43,114 nucleotides of DNA. Origin: a virus. The DNA lies in IMG/VR virus record IMGVR_UViG_3300037258_000073, positions 1 to 43,114 of that record. One strand, given 5' to 3'. Shown here piece by piece: positions 3,457 to 40,880 of this stretch; within the stretch, counting starts at the first letter, position 1, and the number at the start of each line of letters is the position of its first letter. A program made the position numbers and the translations under genes. The notes under the pieces were generated by a model. It had not been told where the DNA came from. It saw only the letters and a program-made list of their open reading frames with translations, and searched no databases.

Positions 3457-5490
3457 TTATTTTCTGTAACGATCTCCGACCCAGGTCTCCGCCTCGATCG
3501 GACAGCGCATGTCTATAGCCCACTGCGGGCGGTCTTCCATCATCTGTTTCAACATAGCATCGTCAGTGCGGTTTGCAAGCACGTCAGCAATAATCTCGTC
3601 GTGCACAGTGAGCACAATTGGATAGTTCTCTGCTCTGCACACCTTCATTGCGTGCACCATGATGTCGCGAGCCAGAGCTTGCACCACGTTCTCGGTCAGC
3701 AATCCACCGTAGGCGTTCACCGTTATCATGTGGCCCTTCTTGTAGGCCTGATAGGTGAACCCCTCACGGATGTCGTCTTGGTCCCAAGGCATGCGCCGCA
3801 ACACTGGCTTCGGGTTCCAATACCAGAGCTTACGGTCGCTCGGTAAGCGGGCCGTGAGCCAGCCGTCCTCCAAGGCGTAGCGGACGCCGAAGGCCTCGTG
3901 GGGCTTCCCGGTCCACACCGTCATGGTGGCGGCAGCCTCCAGCCCATACCACACCTTCGGCACGAGGGGTGCCCAGACTTTGCGGTAGGCATCGACGATC
4001 CCTTGGGCTGCCGACAGGGCGAGCTTCTCTTTCAGGGACAGCTTTCGCGCGCCCATCCCGAACCCGCAGCCAAGAACTCCTGGCTTTCCTGTGTTCTGTC
4101 GTTCGAGCGGGTTGTCCTTCTTAGTGATCACTCGCCCGAGGACCACTCCGGCGAAGTCACAGTAGGGGTCCATTCCTGCGGCGATGAGATCGCACTTGTC
4201 GTATTGTCCAGCAAGCGCGAGAACAATCCTTGCTTCAATTCCAGCGAAATCGCCAACAGCAAGGTTATTGCCAACAGAAGGAATAATGCAATGTCTGAGG
4301 CCAGACACCACGGCTTCCACTGGGCTGCCCAGAACTTCTTTGACATACTCGTGATCTCCTGTCATGATGGCATCAAACACAACCGTCCACTTGACGAGCT
4401 TGCCATCGTCGCCCTTCAAGGTGGGCCGCGGGAAGTTCTGCGGCTGAAACAATCTACCAGCCCATCGGCCGGGGCCGGCAGCATGGTATTGGAGCACACC
4501 TCGCGCCCGGCCATCTGCGCATAGGCAGGCCTGCATGCGGGGCAGTTTCTTGACGGAGGCAGAGCCGACTATCTGCCGTATCTTCAGGGCTTCCGCTACC
4601 TCCTCCGTCAGCGGGGGCGCGTCCCAGAGATCGCTGCCATCGTCGGCCAAGCTATCGTCGTCGTCGAGCCCGTCGATGTCTGAACCGAGCCACTCAGCCA
4701 CCGTCTCCTTCTGGAGGTTTGGTATGTGGCAACCGCGCTCCGCCATCCAGCCCTGGAACTTGGCAGTCTGGGTCGGGGTCAGGCCAGTGCCCTTTTTCCC
4801 GTAGCCCGCAGTCAGCGCAGCGAAGCGCTGAAGCAAAGGTCCGCCGCACCCAGTGACTATGCGTTGGGCATTGGCAATAAAGGCGCGGTCGAGCCGCACG
4901 CCGCGCTGATTGATCTCTTGGTCCATCAGCCATGTTTCTCTCTCCGTTGGTTCGAGCCAGCCAATGCGGCGGTGCAGGCCGAACTCCGATCGGTCGTCCT
5001 GGATGCAGTAGTCTACCACGCGCTGGATGGTGGCCGGCGATCGGTCCAAGTAGCCTGCCTTGTTGGGGTGGCTCAGCCCGATCGTGAACTTGCTGCCAAC
5101 CATGTCCTTTTCGTCCGGCAGCCCCAGGACGTGCAGCGCCTTCTCCAACTGAAGCGGTATGGCCTTGGCTGCGCAGACGGCCTGAGTGTCGTGCCAGCGG
5201 TCATCCGGGATGTCAGGTAGCCCGAACAGGGGCACCATGATCCGGCGCCATATGGCCTTCTCGAACCCGGCGTTGTGGGCCACCCAGATGACGTCGGGGT
5301 CCTCGGCCAGCTCAAGCAGCTCACCCAGGCCATCGCCGGGCACCCACCAGCCGTAAGTTCCATCCGGCCGGCGCCAGCAGAGGCATAGGACCTCGGTGTT
5401 GACGTCCTCGGCGTAGCGCCACGCCCCGCACAGCGGGAGGTCGCACGGGCTGGCCGTCTCGAAGTCTGCGACGATGTAGCGCTTGGCCAC
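3457..5490 (-). CDS. Family A DNA polymerase with 3'-5' exonuclease
   Basis: This 677-residue protein replicates the phage genome. The N-terminal exonuclease domain shows DFE (D9, E11), AHNAGFE (71-77) and YCIQD (161-165), the three DEDD-type Exo motifs. The polymerase domain shows GRWAGR (341-346), motif A GDFAGIEARI (413-422), motif B around K469 (RQNTGKPGVLGCGFGMG) and motif C VHDE (629-632). Catalytic residues look intact, so it should proofread. An acidic low-complexity insert lies at 271-287. The GTG start at 5490 follows the stop of a small membrane gene by one base and has only a weak site of its own, so coupling is likely. It is the branch of family A polymerase found with DUF2815 and DUF2800, not the T7 type. 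Confidence 0.96.
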   Translation of the reverse strand: MAKRYIVADFETASPCDLPLCGAWRYAEDVNTEVLCLCWRRPDGTYGWWVPGDGLGELLELAEDPDVIWVAHNAGFEKAIWRRIMVPLFGLPDIPDDRWHDTQAVCAAKAIPLQLEKALHVLGLPDEKDMVGSKFTIGLSHPNKAGYLDRSPATIQRVVDYCIQDDRSEFGLHRRIGWLEPTERETWLMDQEINQRGVRLDRAFIANAQRIVTGCGGPLLQRFAALTAGYGKKGTGLTPTQTAKFQGWMAERGCHIPNLQKETVAEWLGSDIDGLDDDDSLADDGSDLWDAPPLTEEVAEALKIRQIVGSASVKKLPRMQACLCADGRARGVLQYHAAGPGRWAGRLFQPQNFPRPTLKGDDGKLVKWTVVFDAIMTGDHEYVKEVLGSPVEAVVSGLRHCIIPSVGNNLAVGDFAGIEARIVLALAGQYDKCDLIAAGMDPYCDFAGVVLGRVITKKDNPLERQNTGKPGVLGCGFGMGARKLSLKEKLALSAAQGIVDAYRKVWAPLVPKVWYGLEAAATMTVWTGKPHEAFGVRYALEDGWLTARLPSDRKLWYWNPKPVLRRMPWDQDDIREGFTYQAYKKGHMITVNAYGGLLTENVVQALARDIMVHAMKVCRAENYPIVLTVHDEIIADVLANRTDDAMLKQMMEDRPQWAIDMRCPIEAETWVGDRYRK

Positions 5491-14239: not shown

Positions 14240-14742
14240 TAGGATGGGTCCTCCCTAGGAGGAAATAGGAAGGCGTCCAGTGCTTTCATAAATGTCCGCT
14301 CTGGTTCGGTCAGGCTGGTATAGCGCTGTGCCATTCCCGCAAACACTTCACGCAGCGCGGCGTCCGTTGACCATTTGGTCGTATTGGCAGCCGGACTAGG
14401 TGGTATGGGCGGCGGGGGCACATACCATAGCCGCTCGTATTGTGGAGCACCGGAGAAGCGGTTCGGCTTGGTGGACAGCCGGCGCTCACACATGAACGTC
14501 AGCTCTTTACCTACTTTGGACCAATCGAGCACGCGGCGGATTAACCACTGCTTGGCCTTGGTCGGCTTCTGCCCTTCAGGCTCTGGGATGAGCAAGTCGA
14601 TTAGGAGGTTGGTCGATATCGTAGTCTGGACGCCGCCTCGGGCAGCGTAGTCGGACAGCGCGTTGTGAACTTCCTGGCGAACAATCGGCACGGCCTGCTG
14701 CCAGGGTAGCTCCCGCACGGTGTCCCAATCTTGGGATGACAT
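14239..14742 (-). CDS. Hypothetical early protein, possible winged helix
   Basis: This is a 167-residue protein. Residues 15-95 are mostly helical and end in LTFMCERRLSTKP, a layout compatible with a winged-helix DNA-binding domain. A proline-rich linker (PPPPIPPSP) follows at about 110-118, then a helical C-terminus. AGGAGAGACTTAGCA precedes the ATG. A 195-base non-coding stretch lies upstream. I do not recognise a family, and the DNA-binding idea is inference from shape only. Confidence 0.6.
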   Translation of the reverse strand: MSSQDWDTVRELPWQQAVPIVRQEVHNALSDYAARGGVQTTISTNLLIDLLIPEPEGQKPTKAKQWLIRRVLDWSKVGKELTFMCERRLSTKPNRFSGAPQYERLWYVPPPPIPPSPAANTTKWSTDAALREVFAGMAQRYTSLTEPERTFMKALDAFLFPPREDPS

Positions 14743-15284: not shown

Positions 15285-15926
15285 TTAAAACGGTATTTCG
15301 TCAGGCACGCCCAGATAGGGCACACAAGGCGCTTCGGCAGGCATAGGCCAGCCCTTGGGCACGATGCAGTCTAGATGCACGCGGGAGACGCTATCGGCGT
15401 CCTGGAAGGTGCCATAGGTGCCAGCTACGTCCTGGCACCACCCGTCCCACAGCTCCTGCGCTCGGCCGCCGGTTTCCCGCAGATACCACGCCAGCCGGCG
15501 GGCTTGCGCGCGGGGGGATAGGTCTTTGCGAATGCGGGTTGCATTTATGTCGATGCGTTCCCGCTGTATGTTGCGGGTATCTAGGCAACCCACATCAAAG
15601 CCCATGAATTGCAGGATGAAGCCCGCTTTCACCATGCCTAGGCCAGGGATGCGCAGCAAGACATGCATGGCATCCACAGGCTCTAGGCACGCGACTACGT
15701 CCCGCCACAGCTCCTCCTTATGGTCTTGGAGGTAGGCATAGGCGTGGCCTTTGTTCCCCCACAGGAAGCGGGAATAGGCACCATTCTGGGCTACATCCTC
15801 CATCTGCGCTTTAACAGTGGTGAACTGAGTTTGTATGCTGAGCACGGCAAAGGTCACTCCGCGCGCAAAGGCTTCTACGTCTTGGCGCATGCTCGCATTG
15901 ATAACTCGAACGTGGTCAGCATACAT
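15285..15926 (-). CDS. HhH-GPD DNA glycosylase-like protein with SSB-type tail
   Basis: This is a 213-residue protein. LSIQTQFTTVKAQM (29-42) and LLRIPGLGMVKAGFIL (90-105), followed by GCLDTRNIQR (113-122), match the order of the endonuclease III/HhH-GPD fold: helix-hairpin-helix, then the Asp (D116) that is catalytic in the family. The Lys of bifunctional enzymes is not obvious. The last five residues are DEIPF, the same as the phage ssDNA-binding protein and close to the bacterial SSB tip. It may repair or edit bases, or act on modified DNA. The site before its ATG is weak (AAGGG, inside the preceding stop). Confidence 0.65.
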   Translation of the reverse strand: MYADHVRVINASMRQDVEAFARGVTFAVLSIQTQFTTVKAQMEDVAQNGAYSRFLWGNKGHAYAYLQDHKEELWRDVVACLEPVDAMHVLLRIPGLGMVKAGFILQFMGFDVGCLDTRNIQRERIDINATRIRKDLSPRAQARRLAWYLRETGGRAQELWDGWCQDVAGTYGTFQDADSVSRVHLDCIVPKGWPMPAEAPCVPYLGVPDEIPF

Positions 15927-16302: not shown

Positions 16303-16327
16303 GAAGCTACCGCTTGGCAGTAGCTTC
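16303..16327 (-). terminator. Leftward terminator-like hairpin
   Basis: GAAGCTAC and GTAGCTTC form a perfect 8-bp stem around a nine-base loop, followed on the minus strand by TTTGG. It lies seven bases after the stop at 16334. The T tract is short, so it may be partial. The stem also contains the CTAC/GTAG sequence found in the control regions. Confidence 0.55.
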
Positions 16328-17478: not shown

Positions 17479-17494
17479 GCTACTGACCAGTAGC
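17479..17494. repeat. Palindrome GCTACTG-AC-CAGTAGC
   Basis: A perfect 7+2+7 inverted repeat. It lies over the start point of the possible leftward promoter TTGCCA/TACAAG, where a bound protein would repress. Confidence 0.65.
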
Positions 17495-17612
17495 TTTCGC
17501 TTGTATTCGTCGGCTAGCACCGGCTGGCAACACGCATAGACCACGGATAATAGCCATTCGTCTATCAACCCCAGATTGTAATTGGTTAACATTCGTCCAC
17601 ATTCGCAAACTT

Positions 17613-17681
17613 CTACTCATGAGTAGCAGGCTACTGGGTAGTAGCTTTTGCCTATTGGGATATTCTACTACCCGGTAGTAG
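17613..17681. repeat. Cluster of three CTAC/GTAG palindromes
   Basis: CTACTCATGAGTAG (17613-17626) is a perfect 14-bp palindrome. GCTACTGGGTAGTAGC (17630-17645) is nearly perfect. CTACTACC-C-GGTAGTAG (17665-17681) is a perfect 8+1+8 repeat. Related sequences recur inside two late promoters. Three related sites in 69 bases point to binding of a dimeric regulator. Confidence 0.7.
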
Positions 17682-17783
17682 CATGTGGTTTTCGCCCGCC
17701 AACGGTTGCAAGACCGAAAAGACCGGGGTGGGTGCCGGCCTACCCCCTAGATCGCGCTCGGGATGGTGATGCCATGAAACCGG

Positions 17784-17829: not shown

Positions 17830-17895
17830 ATGATGTTATGCAGGCGCGGCCCCTTGACGGCGAGGCGACCCGATGCTAAATCCGGCGGACCATGA
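17830..17895 (+). CDS. Possible 21-residue leader peptide
   Basis: The ORF MMLCRRGPLTARRPDAKSGG-P has AAAGAGAC before the ATG and its TGA overlaps the terS ATG as ATGA. It is short and Arg/Pro-rich. It may only deliver ribosomes to terS, whose own site (GGCGGACC) is poor. Confidence 0.3.
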   Translation: MMLCRRGPLTARRPDAKSGGP

Positions 17896-20682: not shown

Positions 20683-20712
20683 GCCCAAGTTACCCGCGAG
20701 TAGGAGTGCCCC

Positions 20713-24450: not shown

Positions 24451-24479
24451 TTGACGATCCTACTACTCGGTAGCATATC
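24451..24479 (+). promoter_or_regulatory. Capsid-gene promoter with embedded inverted repeat
   Basis: TTGACG (24451-24456) and CATATC (24474-24479) are exactly 17 bases apart, and the spacer ends with CTACTACTCGGTAG (24460-24473), a CTAC/GTAG repeat like those at 17.6 kb. It would give the capsid gene its own strong transcript. The rest of 24480-24573 is untranslated leader, with a short hairpin (GGCC...GGCC). Confidence 0.6.
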
Positions 24480-24573: not shown

Positions 24574-25494
24574 GTGTCTGAAAACCTCTACAAACTCTTC
24601 ACCGAGGAGTTTTCGACCAACCTGGAGCTGCTGCTCCAGCAGATGGGCAGCCTGCTGCGCGGCAAAGTTCGCGAGGGGTTTCACGTCGGCAAGATGGCCT
24701 CCCCGATCAACCAGATCGGCGCCATCCAGCTCAAGACGCCAGAAGGACGCTTCGCCCCGATCGGGCGCGTTGACGCGAACTTCGTCCGGCGTTGGGTGTT
24801 CCCCCAGGACGGCGATCTTCCCCAGTTGATCGACAGCTTTGACGAGCTGAAGACCATTGTGGACCCGAAGTCCATGTATGTCGAGAACGCGTCGATGGCC
24901 GTTGGCCGCGCGTGGGATGACTGCATTATCCAGGCGGCCCTCGGCACGGCGCAGATCGGCACCGACGCCAACAGCCTGTCTTCGGAGACGTGGGCGAGCT
25001 TCAACTCGGCCTACACCGTTCCGCACGATTTCGGCGCCTCGGCCACCACGGGTCTCTCGGTCGCCAAGCTGATCGAGGTGAAGCGCATCTTCCGGCACAA
25101 CCATGTTGACCTGGACCGCGACCCGGCCTGCATCGTGATTGGCTCGCAGCAAGAGAGCGACCTGTTGAAACAGGCCCAGGTTGTGTCCACCGACTTCTCG
25201 GACAAGCCGGTCCTGGTCGATGGCAAGATCACCCGCTTCATGGGCTTCGATTTTGTCGTGTCCGAGCGTTTGCAGGTCACCTCCAGCGATCGCTACTGCT
25301 TCGCGTTCGTGCGGTCGGGCCTGTATCTCGGCATGTGGCGCGACATGACCAACCGGGTGACCATCCGCGACGACTTGTCGAGCCAGCCGTATCAGCTCTA
25401 CACCATGACGTCCTTTGGTGCCTCGCGGCTCCAGCCGGGCAAAGTCATCGAGGTGCTCTGCAACGATACGACCGGAGCCGATATCACCCCGTAA
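24574..25494 (+). CDS. Major capsid protein
   Basis: This 306-residue protein is of the phage capsid type found in many podo- and siphoviruses: LLLQQMGSLLRGKVREG, APIGRVDANFVRRWVFPQDG, then AWDDCIIQAALGTA, IGSQQESDLL and FMGFDFVVSERL. The ordered alternation of helices and strands fits an HK97 fold. It forms the icosahedral shell. The start is GTG with AAAGG nine bases upstream. It has a private promoter before it and a stem-loop after it, as expected for the most abundant protein. Confidence 0.88.
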   Translation: MSENLYKLFTEEFSTNLELLLQQMGSLLRGKVREGFHVGKMASPINQIGAIQLKTPEGRFAPIGRVDANFVRRWVFPQDGDLPQLIDSFDELKTIVDPKSMYVENASMAVGRAWDDCIIQAALGTAQIGTDANSLSSETWASFNSAYTVPHDFGASATTGLSVAKLIEVKRIFRHNHVDLDRDPACIVIGSQQESDLLKQAQVVSTDFSDKPVLVDGKITRFMGFDFVVSERLQVTSSDRYCFAFVRSGLYLGMWRDMTNRVTIRDDLSSQPYQLYTMTSFGASRLQPGKVIEVLCNDTTGADITP

Positions 25495-39077: not shown

Positions 39078-39105
39078 TTGACCCTACCGGCGGGTAGCCT
39101 ATCTT
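39078..39105 (+). promoter_or_regulatory. Lysis-cassette promoter with embedded inverted repeat
   Basis: TTGACC (39078-39083) and TATCTT (39100-39105) are 16 bases apart. The spacer starts with CTACC-GGCG-GGTAG (39084-39097), a perfect 5+4+5 inverted repeat. It lies 45 bases before the acidic-protein ATG. It has the same build as the capsid promoter at 24451. Confidence 0.6.
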
Positions 39106-39150: not shown

Positions 39151-39441
39151 ATGGAATACGTTGTGCATGTGCCCGGCGACGAAGATTTTGTCGTAGAAGC
39201 AAGCGATTACCAGATCGACGAGGACGACGGATCGCTGGTGTTCGTGGATGATGAGAACAGTGAAGTCGGCCACATCGTGGGCTGGGTTGAGCTGGTAGGT
39301 GCCAGCGTGTTCCCGCACGTGGAAGACGACGAGGTCGAGGATGATGACGAAGTCCGCGACGAGATGATCGAAGTTATCGTGGAGCTGACCGAAGCGCTTC
39401 TGGAAGCGGAAGACGAACTGAACGCCTACGACGGCGAGTAA
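39151..39441 (+). CDS. Very acidic small protein
   Basis: This 96-residue protein is about one third Asp and Glu, with a beta-rich first half (YVVHVPGDEDFVVEASDY) and a run VEDDEVEDDDEVRDEMIEV leading to an acidic helix. No family is recognised. Acidity alone is compatible with a DNA mimic, a metal buffer or a chaperone. It heads the lysis transcript, with ACAGGAGCTATCCCC before the ATG. Confidence 0.7.
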   Translation: MEYVVHVPGDEDFVVEASDYQIDEDDGSLVFVDDENSEVGHIVGWVELVGASVFPHVEDDEVEDDDEVRDEMIEVIVELTEALLEAEDELNAYDGE

Positions 39442-39464
39442 ACCACTGCGCTGGAGGGCGCCTC

Positions 39465-39719
39465 GTGAACGAGGACAAGGCCATGCATCACTTGACTTGG
39501 CCCATTGACGGCGTCGCCCTTGGCGCTGTAGTGGCCTCCATCACGGGCGCCCTCACGCAGTATGCCACGCTGCTGGCGACCCTACTGGCGGTTGTATGGT
39601 ATCTGACCCAGCTCTGGGTTTTCTTTTCGGACAGGCGCCGGCAGCGCCGCAAGGAGGACTACGATGCCAACCGTGCAGAACATCGGGACCGAGGTCCCGG
39701 GCTTGATCAAAACAGTTGA
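39465..39719 (+). CDS. Holin-like membrane protein
   Basis: This 84-residue protein has a hydrophobic stretch at about 17-53 (VALGAVVASITGALTQYATL, then LATLLAVVWYLTQLWVFF), long enough for one or two membrane helices. It ends in the basic tail SDRRRQRRKED. Size, charge and place before the endolysin fit a holin. The GTG start has GGAGGG upstream. It overlaps the next gene by 56 bases. Confidence 0.7.
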   Translation: MNEDKAMHHLTWPIDGVALGAVVASITGALTQYATLLATLLAVVWYLTQLWVFFSDRRRQRRKEDYDANRAEHRDRGPGLDQNS

Positions 39720-39945
39720 GACCCTGGACCCGGAGCTGGCCGCCGAAGGCAAGTCCGCCCTGGAGAGTAAGACCCTCGGCGCCATGGCGGCTATCGCTGT
39801 GGGCTGGGCGGTAGCGCACTGGGGCTTCAACTGGGATGCCGATACCGTCAACGCGGTAGCCGGCTTGCTCGCACTCGGGGCGGCCACCGGGCTGCGCCTG
39901 ATCACCACAACCCCCATCACCAGCGTCCTGCCGGTGAAGAAGTAA
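39664..39945 (+). CDS. Second small membrane protein, holin or antiholin
   Basis: This 93-residue protein has two likely membrane helices, TLGAMAAIAVGWAVAHWGF (about 37-55) and VNAVAGLLALGAATGLRLI (about 62-80), with a polar N-terminus. AAGGAGGACTACG precedes the ATG, inside the end of the first holin-like gene. Two overlapping membrane genes before an endolysin often form a holin/antiholin pair, but either could be the holin. Confidence 0.65.
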   Translation: MPTVQNIGTEVPGLIKTVETLDPELAAEGKSALESKTLGAMAAIAVGWAVAHWGFNWDADTVNAVAGLLALGAATGLRLITTTPITSVLPVKK

Positions 39946-39958
39946 GGATACCGAAGTT

Positions 39959-40366
39959 ATGAAAAAGTTTCTAGTAATCGGTGGCGTGCTCCTGCTCGCC
40001 GGCTGTAGCGCTGCTCCAGTTGCCGGCGGCTCGATCCTCGGCGCCCTGGCCACAACCCTGAACATCGTGGGCTCTGCGGTGCAGACCGGGCAGGAAGTGT
40101 GCGCGGTGGGCCAGACCCTGGTCGCGCTGACCGACGCCACGAACGGAGACGCTCCCGTGCTGGTGACCGGCAAGCCGGCATCCGACGTGGCCAAGGCGTG
40201 TGCCTTGATCAACGGCATCGTGGTGTCCCCGCCGGCTGCCGGTGTGAACGTCCCGAGCGTGTCGATCGTGCCACCGGTTGTGACCGTGTCGGCCGCAGGC
40301 GTGACTACGTCGGGCGGCACGAAGGTAACCATCACGCCGGCTGACCCGGCCGCAGTGAGCAAGTAA
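39959..40366 (+). CDS. Lipoprotein of the lysis cassette
   Basis: This 135-residue protein has a signal peptide MKKFLVIGGVLLLAGC with a lipobox (LAGC, Cys16), so it should be lipidated and sorted to the outer membrane or inner membrane. The rest is Ala/Val/Thr-rich with Pro-Pro near 219-equivalent turns and no C-terminal membrane helix, so it is not a one-piece spanin. Between holins and endolysin it could be an outer-membrane spanin-like protein. AAGGA precedes the ATG. Confidence 0.65.
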   Translation: MKKFLVIGGVLLLAGCSAAPVAGGSILGALATTLNIVGSAVQTGQEVCAVGQTLVALTDATNGDAPVLVTGKPASDVAKACALINGIVVSPPAAGVNVPSVSIVPPVVTVSAAGVTTSGGTKVTITPADPAAVSK

Positions 40367-40367
40367 C

Positions 40368-40880
40368 GTGGACGCGAACTTTGACGCTTGCCTCGCCTTC
40401 ACTCTCAAGGAGGAAGGCGGGTTCGTCAACGACCCGGACGACCCGGGCGGCGCCACAAACATGGGCATTACGCTGGCGACGCTTCGGGCTTCCCGAAGCA
40501 ACCCAGCCCTCGGTGTGCTGGCCATCAAAGCTCTGACCCAGACCGAGACCAGCACGATCTATCGGCAATCCTACTGGGGGCCGTGCTCCAAGCTGCCAGC
40601 AGGCGTCGATCTCATGGTGTTCGATATGGCTGTCAACGCCGGGCCGGCTCGCGCGGCCAAGCAGCTCCAGGCTGTGCTGGGCGTGGACGAGGACGGCGTC
40701 ATCGGCAATGATACCCTGTCGGCCCTCCAGCGCTGGCGCAGCTCGGACTTGGTGACCGATTTGGCCAATGCGCAGGCTGCCTACTACCGCGGTCTGAGCA
40801 CCTTCTGGAAGTTTGGCAAGGGCTGGCTGGCGCGGGTCAATCGCCGGCACGACACTGCCTTCAGCATGGCGATTGCCTAA
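40368..40880 (+). CDS. GH108 endolysin
   Basis: This 170-residue protein matches the glycosyl hydrolase 108 family: LAFTLKEEGGFVNDPDDPGG with the EEGG motif and catalytic Glu, then ATNMGIT, YWGPCSKLP, DMAVNAGPARAAKQLQ and a C-terminal peptidoglycan-binding region (GVDEDGVIGNDTLSAL, YYRGL, GWLARVNRR). It cuts the wall to release phage. No signal peptide is seen, so it needs a holin. The start is GTG, two bases after the lipoprotein stop. Confidence 0.93.
   Translation: MDANFDACLAFTLKEEGGFVNDPDDPGGATNMGITLATLRASRSNPALGVLAIKALTQTETSTIYRQSYWGPCSKLPAGVDLMVFDMAVNAGPARAAKQLQAVLGVDEDGVIGNDTLSALQRWRSSDLVTDLANAQAAYYRGLSTFWKFGKGWLARVNRRHDTAFSMAIA

Follow-up and report, generated by a model that had tools for sequence, protein, structure and literature searches.

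Intergenic CTAC-N6-GTAG palindromes in the control region and late promoters of a phage genome, probable operators whose word differs among relatives

The DNA analysed here, called the window throughout, is a linear virus record of 43,114 bp from IMG/VR. Its leftward replication arm encodes exonucleases, a DNA polymerase, a Gp2.5-like single-strand binding protein and a helicase, with a primase gene on the + strand, and its rightward structural arm carries terS (17892), terL (19195), the portal gene (20947) and the capsid gene (24574). A megablast search with a 20-kb query from the middle of the window returned no match among 50,697 phage records. The region at 17.4–17.8 kb holds several palindromes, flanked on one side by the first leftward early genes and on the other by a G+C-rich element, matched by eye in the terS upstream regions of relatives and probably the packaging (cos/pac) element. 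The features are collected in Table 1.

Table 1 Coordinates of genes, predicted promoters and palindromes in the window
Feature	Position	Strand	Remarks
Winged-helix-like early protein, 167 aa	14242..14742	-	Diverged homologues in 6-7 relatives, beside replication genes
Operator-like palindrome CTACTGACCAGTAG	17480..17493		Matrix score 23.8; intergenic
Operator-like palindrome CTACTCATGAGTAG	17613..17626		Matrix score 22.8
Operator-like palindrome CTACTGGGTAGTAG	17631..17644		Matrix score 23.4
Weak promoter-like pair TTGGGA-N18-TAGCAT	17655	+	Consensus match only; spacer contains palindrome 17665..17681
17-bp palindrome CTACTACCCGGTAGTAG	17665..17681		Odd centre; two overlapping registers, 17665 and 17668; matrix scores 22.4 and 22.9
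Element AAAAGACCGGGGTGGGTGCCGGCCTACCCCC	17717..17748	+	Common to terS upstream regions of relatives, compared by eye
terS promoter-like TTGACG-N17-TAAATC	17854..17882	+	Spacer without palindrome
terS, terminase small subunit, 198 aa	17892..18488	+	PHROG 51, E=2.7e-6; Pfam Terminase_2 match below Pfam cut-off
Tentative extra site TTACCCGCGAGTAG	20690..20703		One mismatch; terL-portal gap, intergenic; matrix score 16.0
Major capsid gene promoter TTGACG-N17-CATATC	24451..24479	+	Sigma70 by consensus
Operator-like palindrome CTACTACTCGGTAG	24460..24473		In capsid promoter spacer; matrix score 24.7, top of window
Major capsid protein gene	24574..25494	+	PHROG 3437, E=4e-56
Promoter TTGACC-N16-TATCTT	39078..39105	+	Sigma70-type by consensus; ahead of 39151-40880 cassette
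Operator-like palindrome CTACCGGCGGGTAG	39084..39097		In lysis-cassette promoter spacer; matrix score 16.9, lowest among exact sites
Small-gene cassette	39151-40880		Acidic 96-aa protein, small membrane/lipoprotein genes, lysozyme-like protein (by eye)

The word CTAC-N6-GTAG occurs seven times in the window, at six places and nowhere else (17480, 17613, 17631, 17665/17668, 24460 and 39084). The first copy forms the core of a 16-bp palindrome, GCTACTGACCAGTAGC, at 17479–17494, and the third has G..C flanks from 17630 and lies 18 bp, centre to centre, from the palindrome at 17613. The initial annotation had placed four palindromes in the control region (17479, 17613, 17630 and 17665), with related repeats inside the spacers of promoters at 24451 and 39078; all four were recovered at or within 1 nt of these positions, and the related repeats were located at 24460 and 39084.

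Among all 4- and 5-mer dyads with gaps of 0–12, CTAC-N6-GTAG was the top dyad of the window, with 7 copies observed versus 0.45 expected (p = 5e-7). In 100 dinucleotide shuffles of the window, the best dyad reached a p of only 2e-5 and none (0/100) was as significant as the real sequence, the word itself occurring a mean of 0.15 times per shuffle with a maximum of 2. For the 800 bp upstream of terS, the p for this dyad was 4e-13. All the sites are intergenic, compared to the 5.7% of the window that is intergenic DNA. The nine best matches in a weight-matrix scan of the window are likewise all intergenic, the best in-gene match scoring 11.6, where the matrix was derived from the sites themselves and only the eighth (20690) and ninth (16307) matches are independent of it; equal numbers of sites inside genes, the pattern that had been named as speaking against a control element, were not seen. 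The window contains a symmetric word that is repeated above chance and confined to intergenic DNA, one of the features expected of operators read by one dimeric regulator.

The ninth matrix match was discounted as an operator site, as it is part of a terminator-like hairpin. At 16307–16320, between early genes, the - strand has a stem bearing CTAC..GTAG with T-rich DNA behind it, an arrangement that mimics an operator. The resemblance of this site to a real terminator raises the possibility that the other palindromes also act as RNA hairpins, and those at 17479–17494 and 17665–17681 were indeed rated terminator-like, with three G-C pairs each and weak T tails. However, three terminator-like sites compare to 1.7 expected in the scanned stretch, the letters are conserved beyond what pairing alone requires, transcription is expected to start downstream of the palindromes at 24460 and 39084, and no Rfam match was found. 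We disfavour this explanation and regard it as extremely improbable.

The two distant palindromes both lie between the -35 and -10 boxes of TTGAC-type promoters predicted by consensus, within spacers of 17 nt (24460) and 16 nt (39084). The capsid start codon lies 95 nt beyond the end of the capsid promoter's -10 box. Next to the 17480–17681 array, the promoter scan recognised no strong leftward early promoter.

The nearest relative, L010 (78% identity in the major capsid protein, MCP), has its best matrix match in the homologous capsid-promoter spacer, a copy with one mismatch that scores 19.1 versus a maximum of 18.6 in 260 control chunks from other relatives; a second copy follows in tandem, 17 bp on. 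In more distant capsid relatives CTAC-N6-GTAG occurs at chance level only (2 exact copies in 56 loci; 6 of 30 contigs), and conservation of the word across all relatives was rejected on this ground. The proposal of a single regulator-site family thus held for the window, where the sites are only intergenic and are found both in the divergent control region and within two or more late promoters, but not for distant relatives, in which the word is absent above chance. Conservation in related phages, which had been put forward as a check, extends to the spacer of L010, while farther relatives carry different palindromes at the same place. Examples of the latter are CATAGTTTCGACTATG (L020), ATCACGAAAACGTGAT (L130), AATCCTAGGCAGGATT (L118), CACCCGTAATTTTCGGGTG (L014) and GCGCAATAATCTTGCGC (L050).

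Across 54 dereplicated capsid promoters of relatives, the spacer dyad score was 4.14; neighbouring windows gave 3.55 ± 0.17 and shuffled spacers 3.45 ± 0.13, with 0/300 shuffles reaching the real value. The score is raised locally at the spacer centre, the rise being modest and similar values occurring at other single offsets. With a stricter promoter set, z was 4.1 for capsid promoters, 0 for terS promoters (9 promoters) and 1.7 for other promoters. A clear spacer palindrome is present in only about one third of the relatives, and the word differs between phages with 60–75% capsid identity. As a group, the capsid-promoter spacers of the relatives are enriched in palindromes of many different sequences. 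Our literature search returned nothing relevant on an operator in the capsid promoter of this type of phage. In most relatives (for example L031, L050 and L023) a hairpin-like sequence, GGCCCCCGGTTNCGGATACGGCC, is found 40–60 nt upstream of the capsid start codon. It is possibly a structured RNA; an Rfam search with this capsid-leader hairpin gave no family match.

These data bear on the idea that the control-region copies are replication-origin iterons or partition sites. The repeats are clustered in a non-coding region between divergent modules, as such sites might be. However, iterons would explain neither the copies in the capsid and lysis promoter spacers nor the excess of spacer palindromes at the relatives' capsid promoters, and no ParA/ParB or iteron-binding initiator was recognised in the window. 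We consider this reading very improbable.

Several relatives also carry palindromes upstream of terS. The commonest operator word, CGCAAYAATNTTGCG (the CGCAA word), is found five times in G031, four copies being upstream of terS and one in the capsid promoter, and three times upstream of terS in G032, which has variants at the terL-portal gap and at the capsid promoter (the latter one-sided). It occurs several times in L057 and G016, as well as in G001, G035 and G044; in both G016 and G031 it is found at the capsid promoter as well as ahead of terS. Of the TAGG-N8-CCTA copies in G021, three precede terS, one lies in the gap that follows terL and one belongs to the capsid promoter; the terS upstream regions of G034 and G027 contain ATCAC-N6-GTGAT and TTAC-N4-GTAA, respectively. 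In a permutation test on 23 phages, recurrence of the capsid-spacer word upstream of the phage's own terS scored 10.5 for own and 10.3 for permuted pairings (p = 0.13), and recurrence was clear only in the window, G031, G032 and (tied) G021. We therefore rejected own-word recurrence as a general law; as the test is not significant and the signal comes from these four phages, the shared-word plan applies to a subset and not to the whole clade.

Other repeats were seen in the same survey. Four copies of TTGGCACNNTTCTTGCA occupy 15521–15628 on the - strand of the L031 contig (G008), immediately ahead of the presumed packaging element and terS; three of these copies fit the sigma54 -24/-12 consensus TGGCACG-N4-TTGC. 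In the L055 contig (G021), about eight tandem repeats of roughly 20 bp each, (T)TGCCTCGGCTAGCA, lie upstream of terS at ~17.7–17.9 kb, beside the TAGG-N8-CCTA sites. Spread over the whole length of their contigs are GTTTAAAC in L036 (G011; 11 copies, 0.04 expected) and CTTTAAAG in L015 (G027; 10 copies, 0.06 expected), with a density of about 1 per 1.4–1.9 kb, some copies being right before start codons and some within genes.

In the window and several relatives the array immediately precedes the presumed packaging element and terS, a location consistent with recognition of the sites by TerS itself, a DNA-binding protein present throughout the structural module. The palindromes would then be cosB-like packaging sites and the promoter copies would serve TerS-mediated feedback. 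However, some copies are in promoter spacers at distances of 6 and 21 kb, and the operator word and the presumed TerS recognition region do not sort together: the same CGCAA word is found with different TerS helices, and similar helices are found without the word. TerS was therefore rejected as the reader, and we judge packaging recognition to be an improbable account of the sites.

We searched for the regulator among the early proteins of the window. The initial annotation had recognised no repressor or activator, and this was borne out, as no known regulator family, including HTH and ribbon-helix-helix, matched any of the scanned early proteins. For the ribbon-helix-helix family, no match at E <= 1 was obtained in the ten early proteins scanned, a search that very small or diverged proteins and some small ORFs can escape. 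There was also no repressor or integrase match among the scanned window proteins. A weak candidate is the winged-helix-like protein encoded at 14242–14742, for which the AlphaFold model has a moderate mean pLDDT of 71.6; solved structures gave no significant match to it in fold or sequence, and a scan of viral contigs yielded no close relative. Capsid relatives were sought in 84,980 prokaryote genomes and none was found, the sensitivity being bounded by the peptide patterns used. As no relative was found in these genomes, classical lysogeny, and with it a lysogeny repressor, is unlikely.

The word may instead be read by a host transcription factor, the relatives differing since their hosts differ. 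Consistent with this possibility, no phage protein family tracks CGCAAYAATNTTGCG across the relatives, and G001 has this word, yet the replication proteins of the window find no homologue in G001. TTGAC promoters with CTAC-N6-GTAG spacers are present in unrelated low-GC viral contigs as well, such as L196. These contig matches were selected by pattern, however, and their number (more than 118 across all viral contigs) is about that expected by a rough chance estimate, many being copies of one low-GC promoter. Nor was a host regulon of this form visible: a scan of the 84,980 prokaryote genomes for TTGAC promoters containing the CGCAA word yielded just 8 scattered matches, in unrelated phyla and close to chance. 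The change of word between phages as similar as 60–75% in their capsids also argues against a host reader. On balance we regard a host factor as unlikely, if the most credible of the alternatives. No small regulator-like protein common to the window and the contigs with CTAC-spacer promoters was found, and no such promoters were found in cultured phages. The L196 contig itself has CTAC-N6-GTAG at 5407, 6748 and 6981, three copies in 12 kb, two of which fall within spacers of early-gene TTGACC..TTAT promoters.

On this evidence, a single dimeric regulator with sequence-specific binding probably uses the palindromes as its operators. It would most likely repress late promoters, and its specificity appears to turn over fast while the position of its site is kept. 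Binding and repression are inferred here. The near-consensus -35 boxes of the capsid promoters would fit repression better than activation. Bound between the -35 and -10 boxes of the capsid or lysis promoter, within the spacer, the regulator would sterically exclude RNA polymerase, and these strong-looking late promoters might stay closed until the regulator has been consumed, removed or titrated by an excess of replicated phage DNA. The cluster at 17480–17681 would bind the same regulator, both controlling the early/late divide and acting as a sink. The regulator may be encoded by the phage. From one phage lineage to the next, the word that it reads would change quickly but keep its place in the capsid promoter.

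More tentatively, a large and apparently strictly lytic clade may keep an operator in its major capsid promoter spacer while the word turns over between lineages. Such a system might be a fast-diverging timer of late genes or a superinfection code, read by a regulator of an unrecognised class; we consider this broader reading possible rather than probable. In phages without their own RNA polymerase or a recognised regulator, it is often unclear how capsid and lysis genes are restrained. Here, the DNA half of such a switch may be seen in one genome and, spelled differently, in a sizeable share of its relatives. The operator word could be used as bait for the regulator, and the differing words would provide natural specificity variants.

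Several known systems resemble parts of this arrangement. In phage lambda, the R elements of cosB are bound by the terminase small subunit; the window repeats similarly adjoin a presumed packaging site that precedes terS. Unlike in cosB, the window word is also found in distant promoter spacers and the TerS sequence does not track it. The Arc operator of phage P22 lies between the -10 and -35 boxes of the ant promoter and has TAGA-type half-sites. The window shares with it an operator-like site between the two boxes of a phage promoter, but the word differs, several promoters share one site and no Arc-like ribbon-helix-helix protein was recognised among the ten early proteins scanned. In Cluster A mycobacteriophages (L5, Bxb1), the phage-specific stoperator word diverges together with the immunity repressor; these stoperators are asymmetric 13-bp sites of temperate phages, with up to ~30 in a genome, aligned with the direction of transcription and mostly outside promoters (PMC6550527). 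By contrast, the window sites are few (6 to 7 per genome), symmetric and located in promoter spacers and a control array, and, unlike the temperate Cluster A phages, the window yielded no capsid relative in the 84,980 genomes and no repressor or integrase match among its scanned proteins. Neither the Cluster A stoperators nor the P22 Arc operator fits fully. What the window has in common with Cluster A is a short word, specific to the phage and recurring along its genome, with related but distinct words in related phages.
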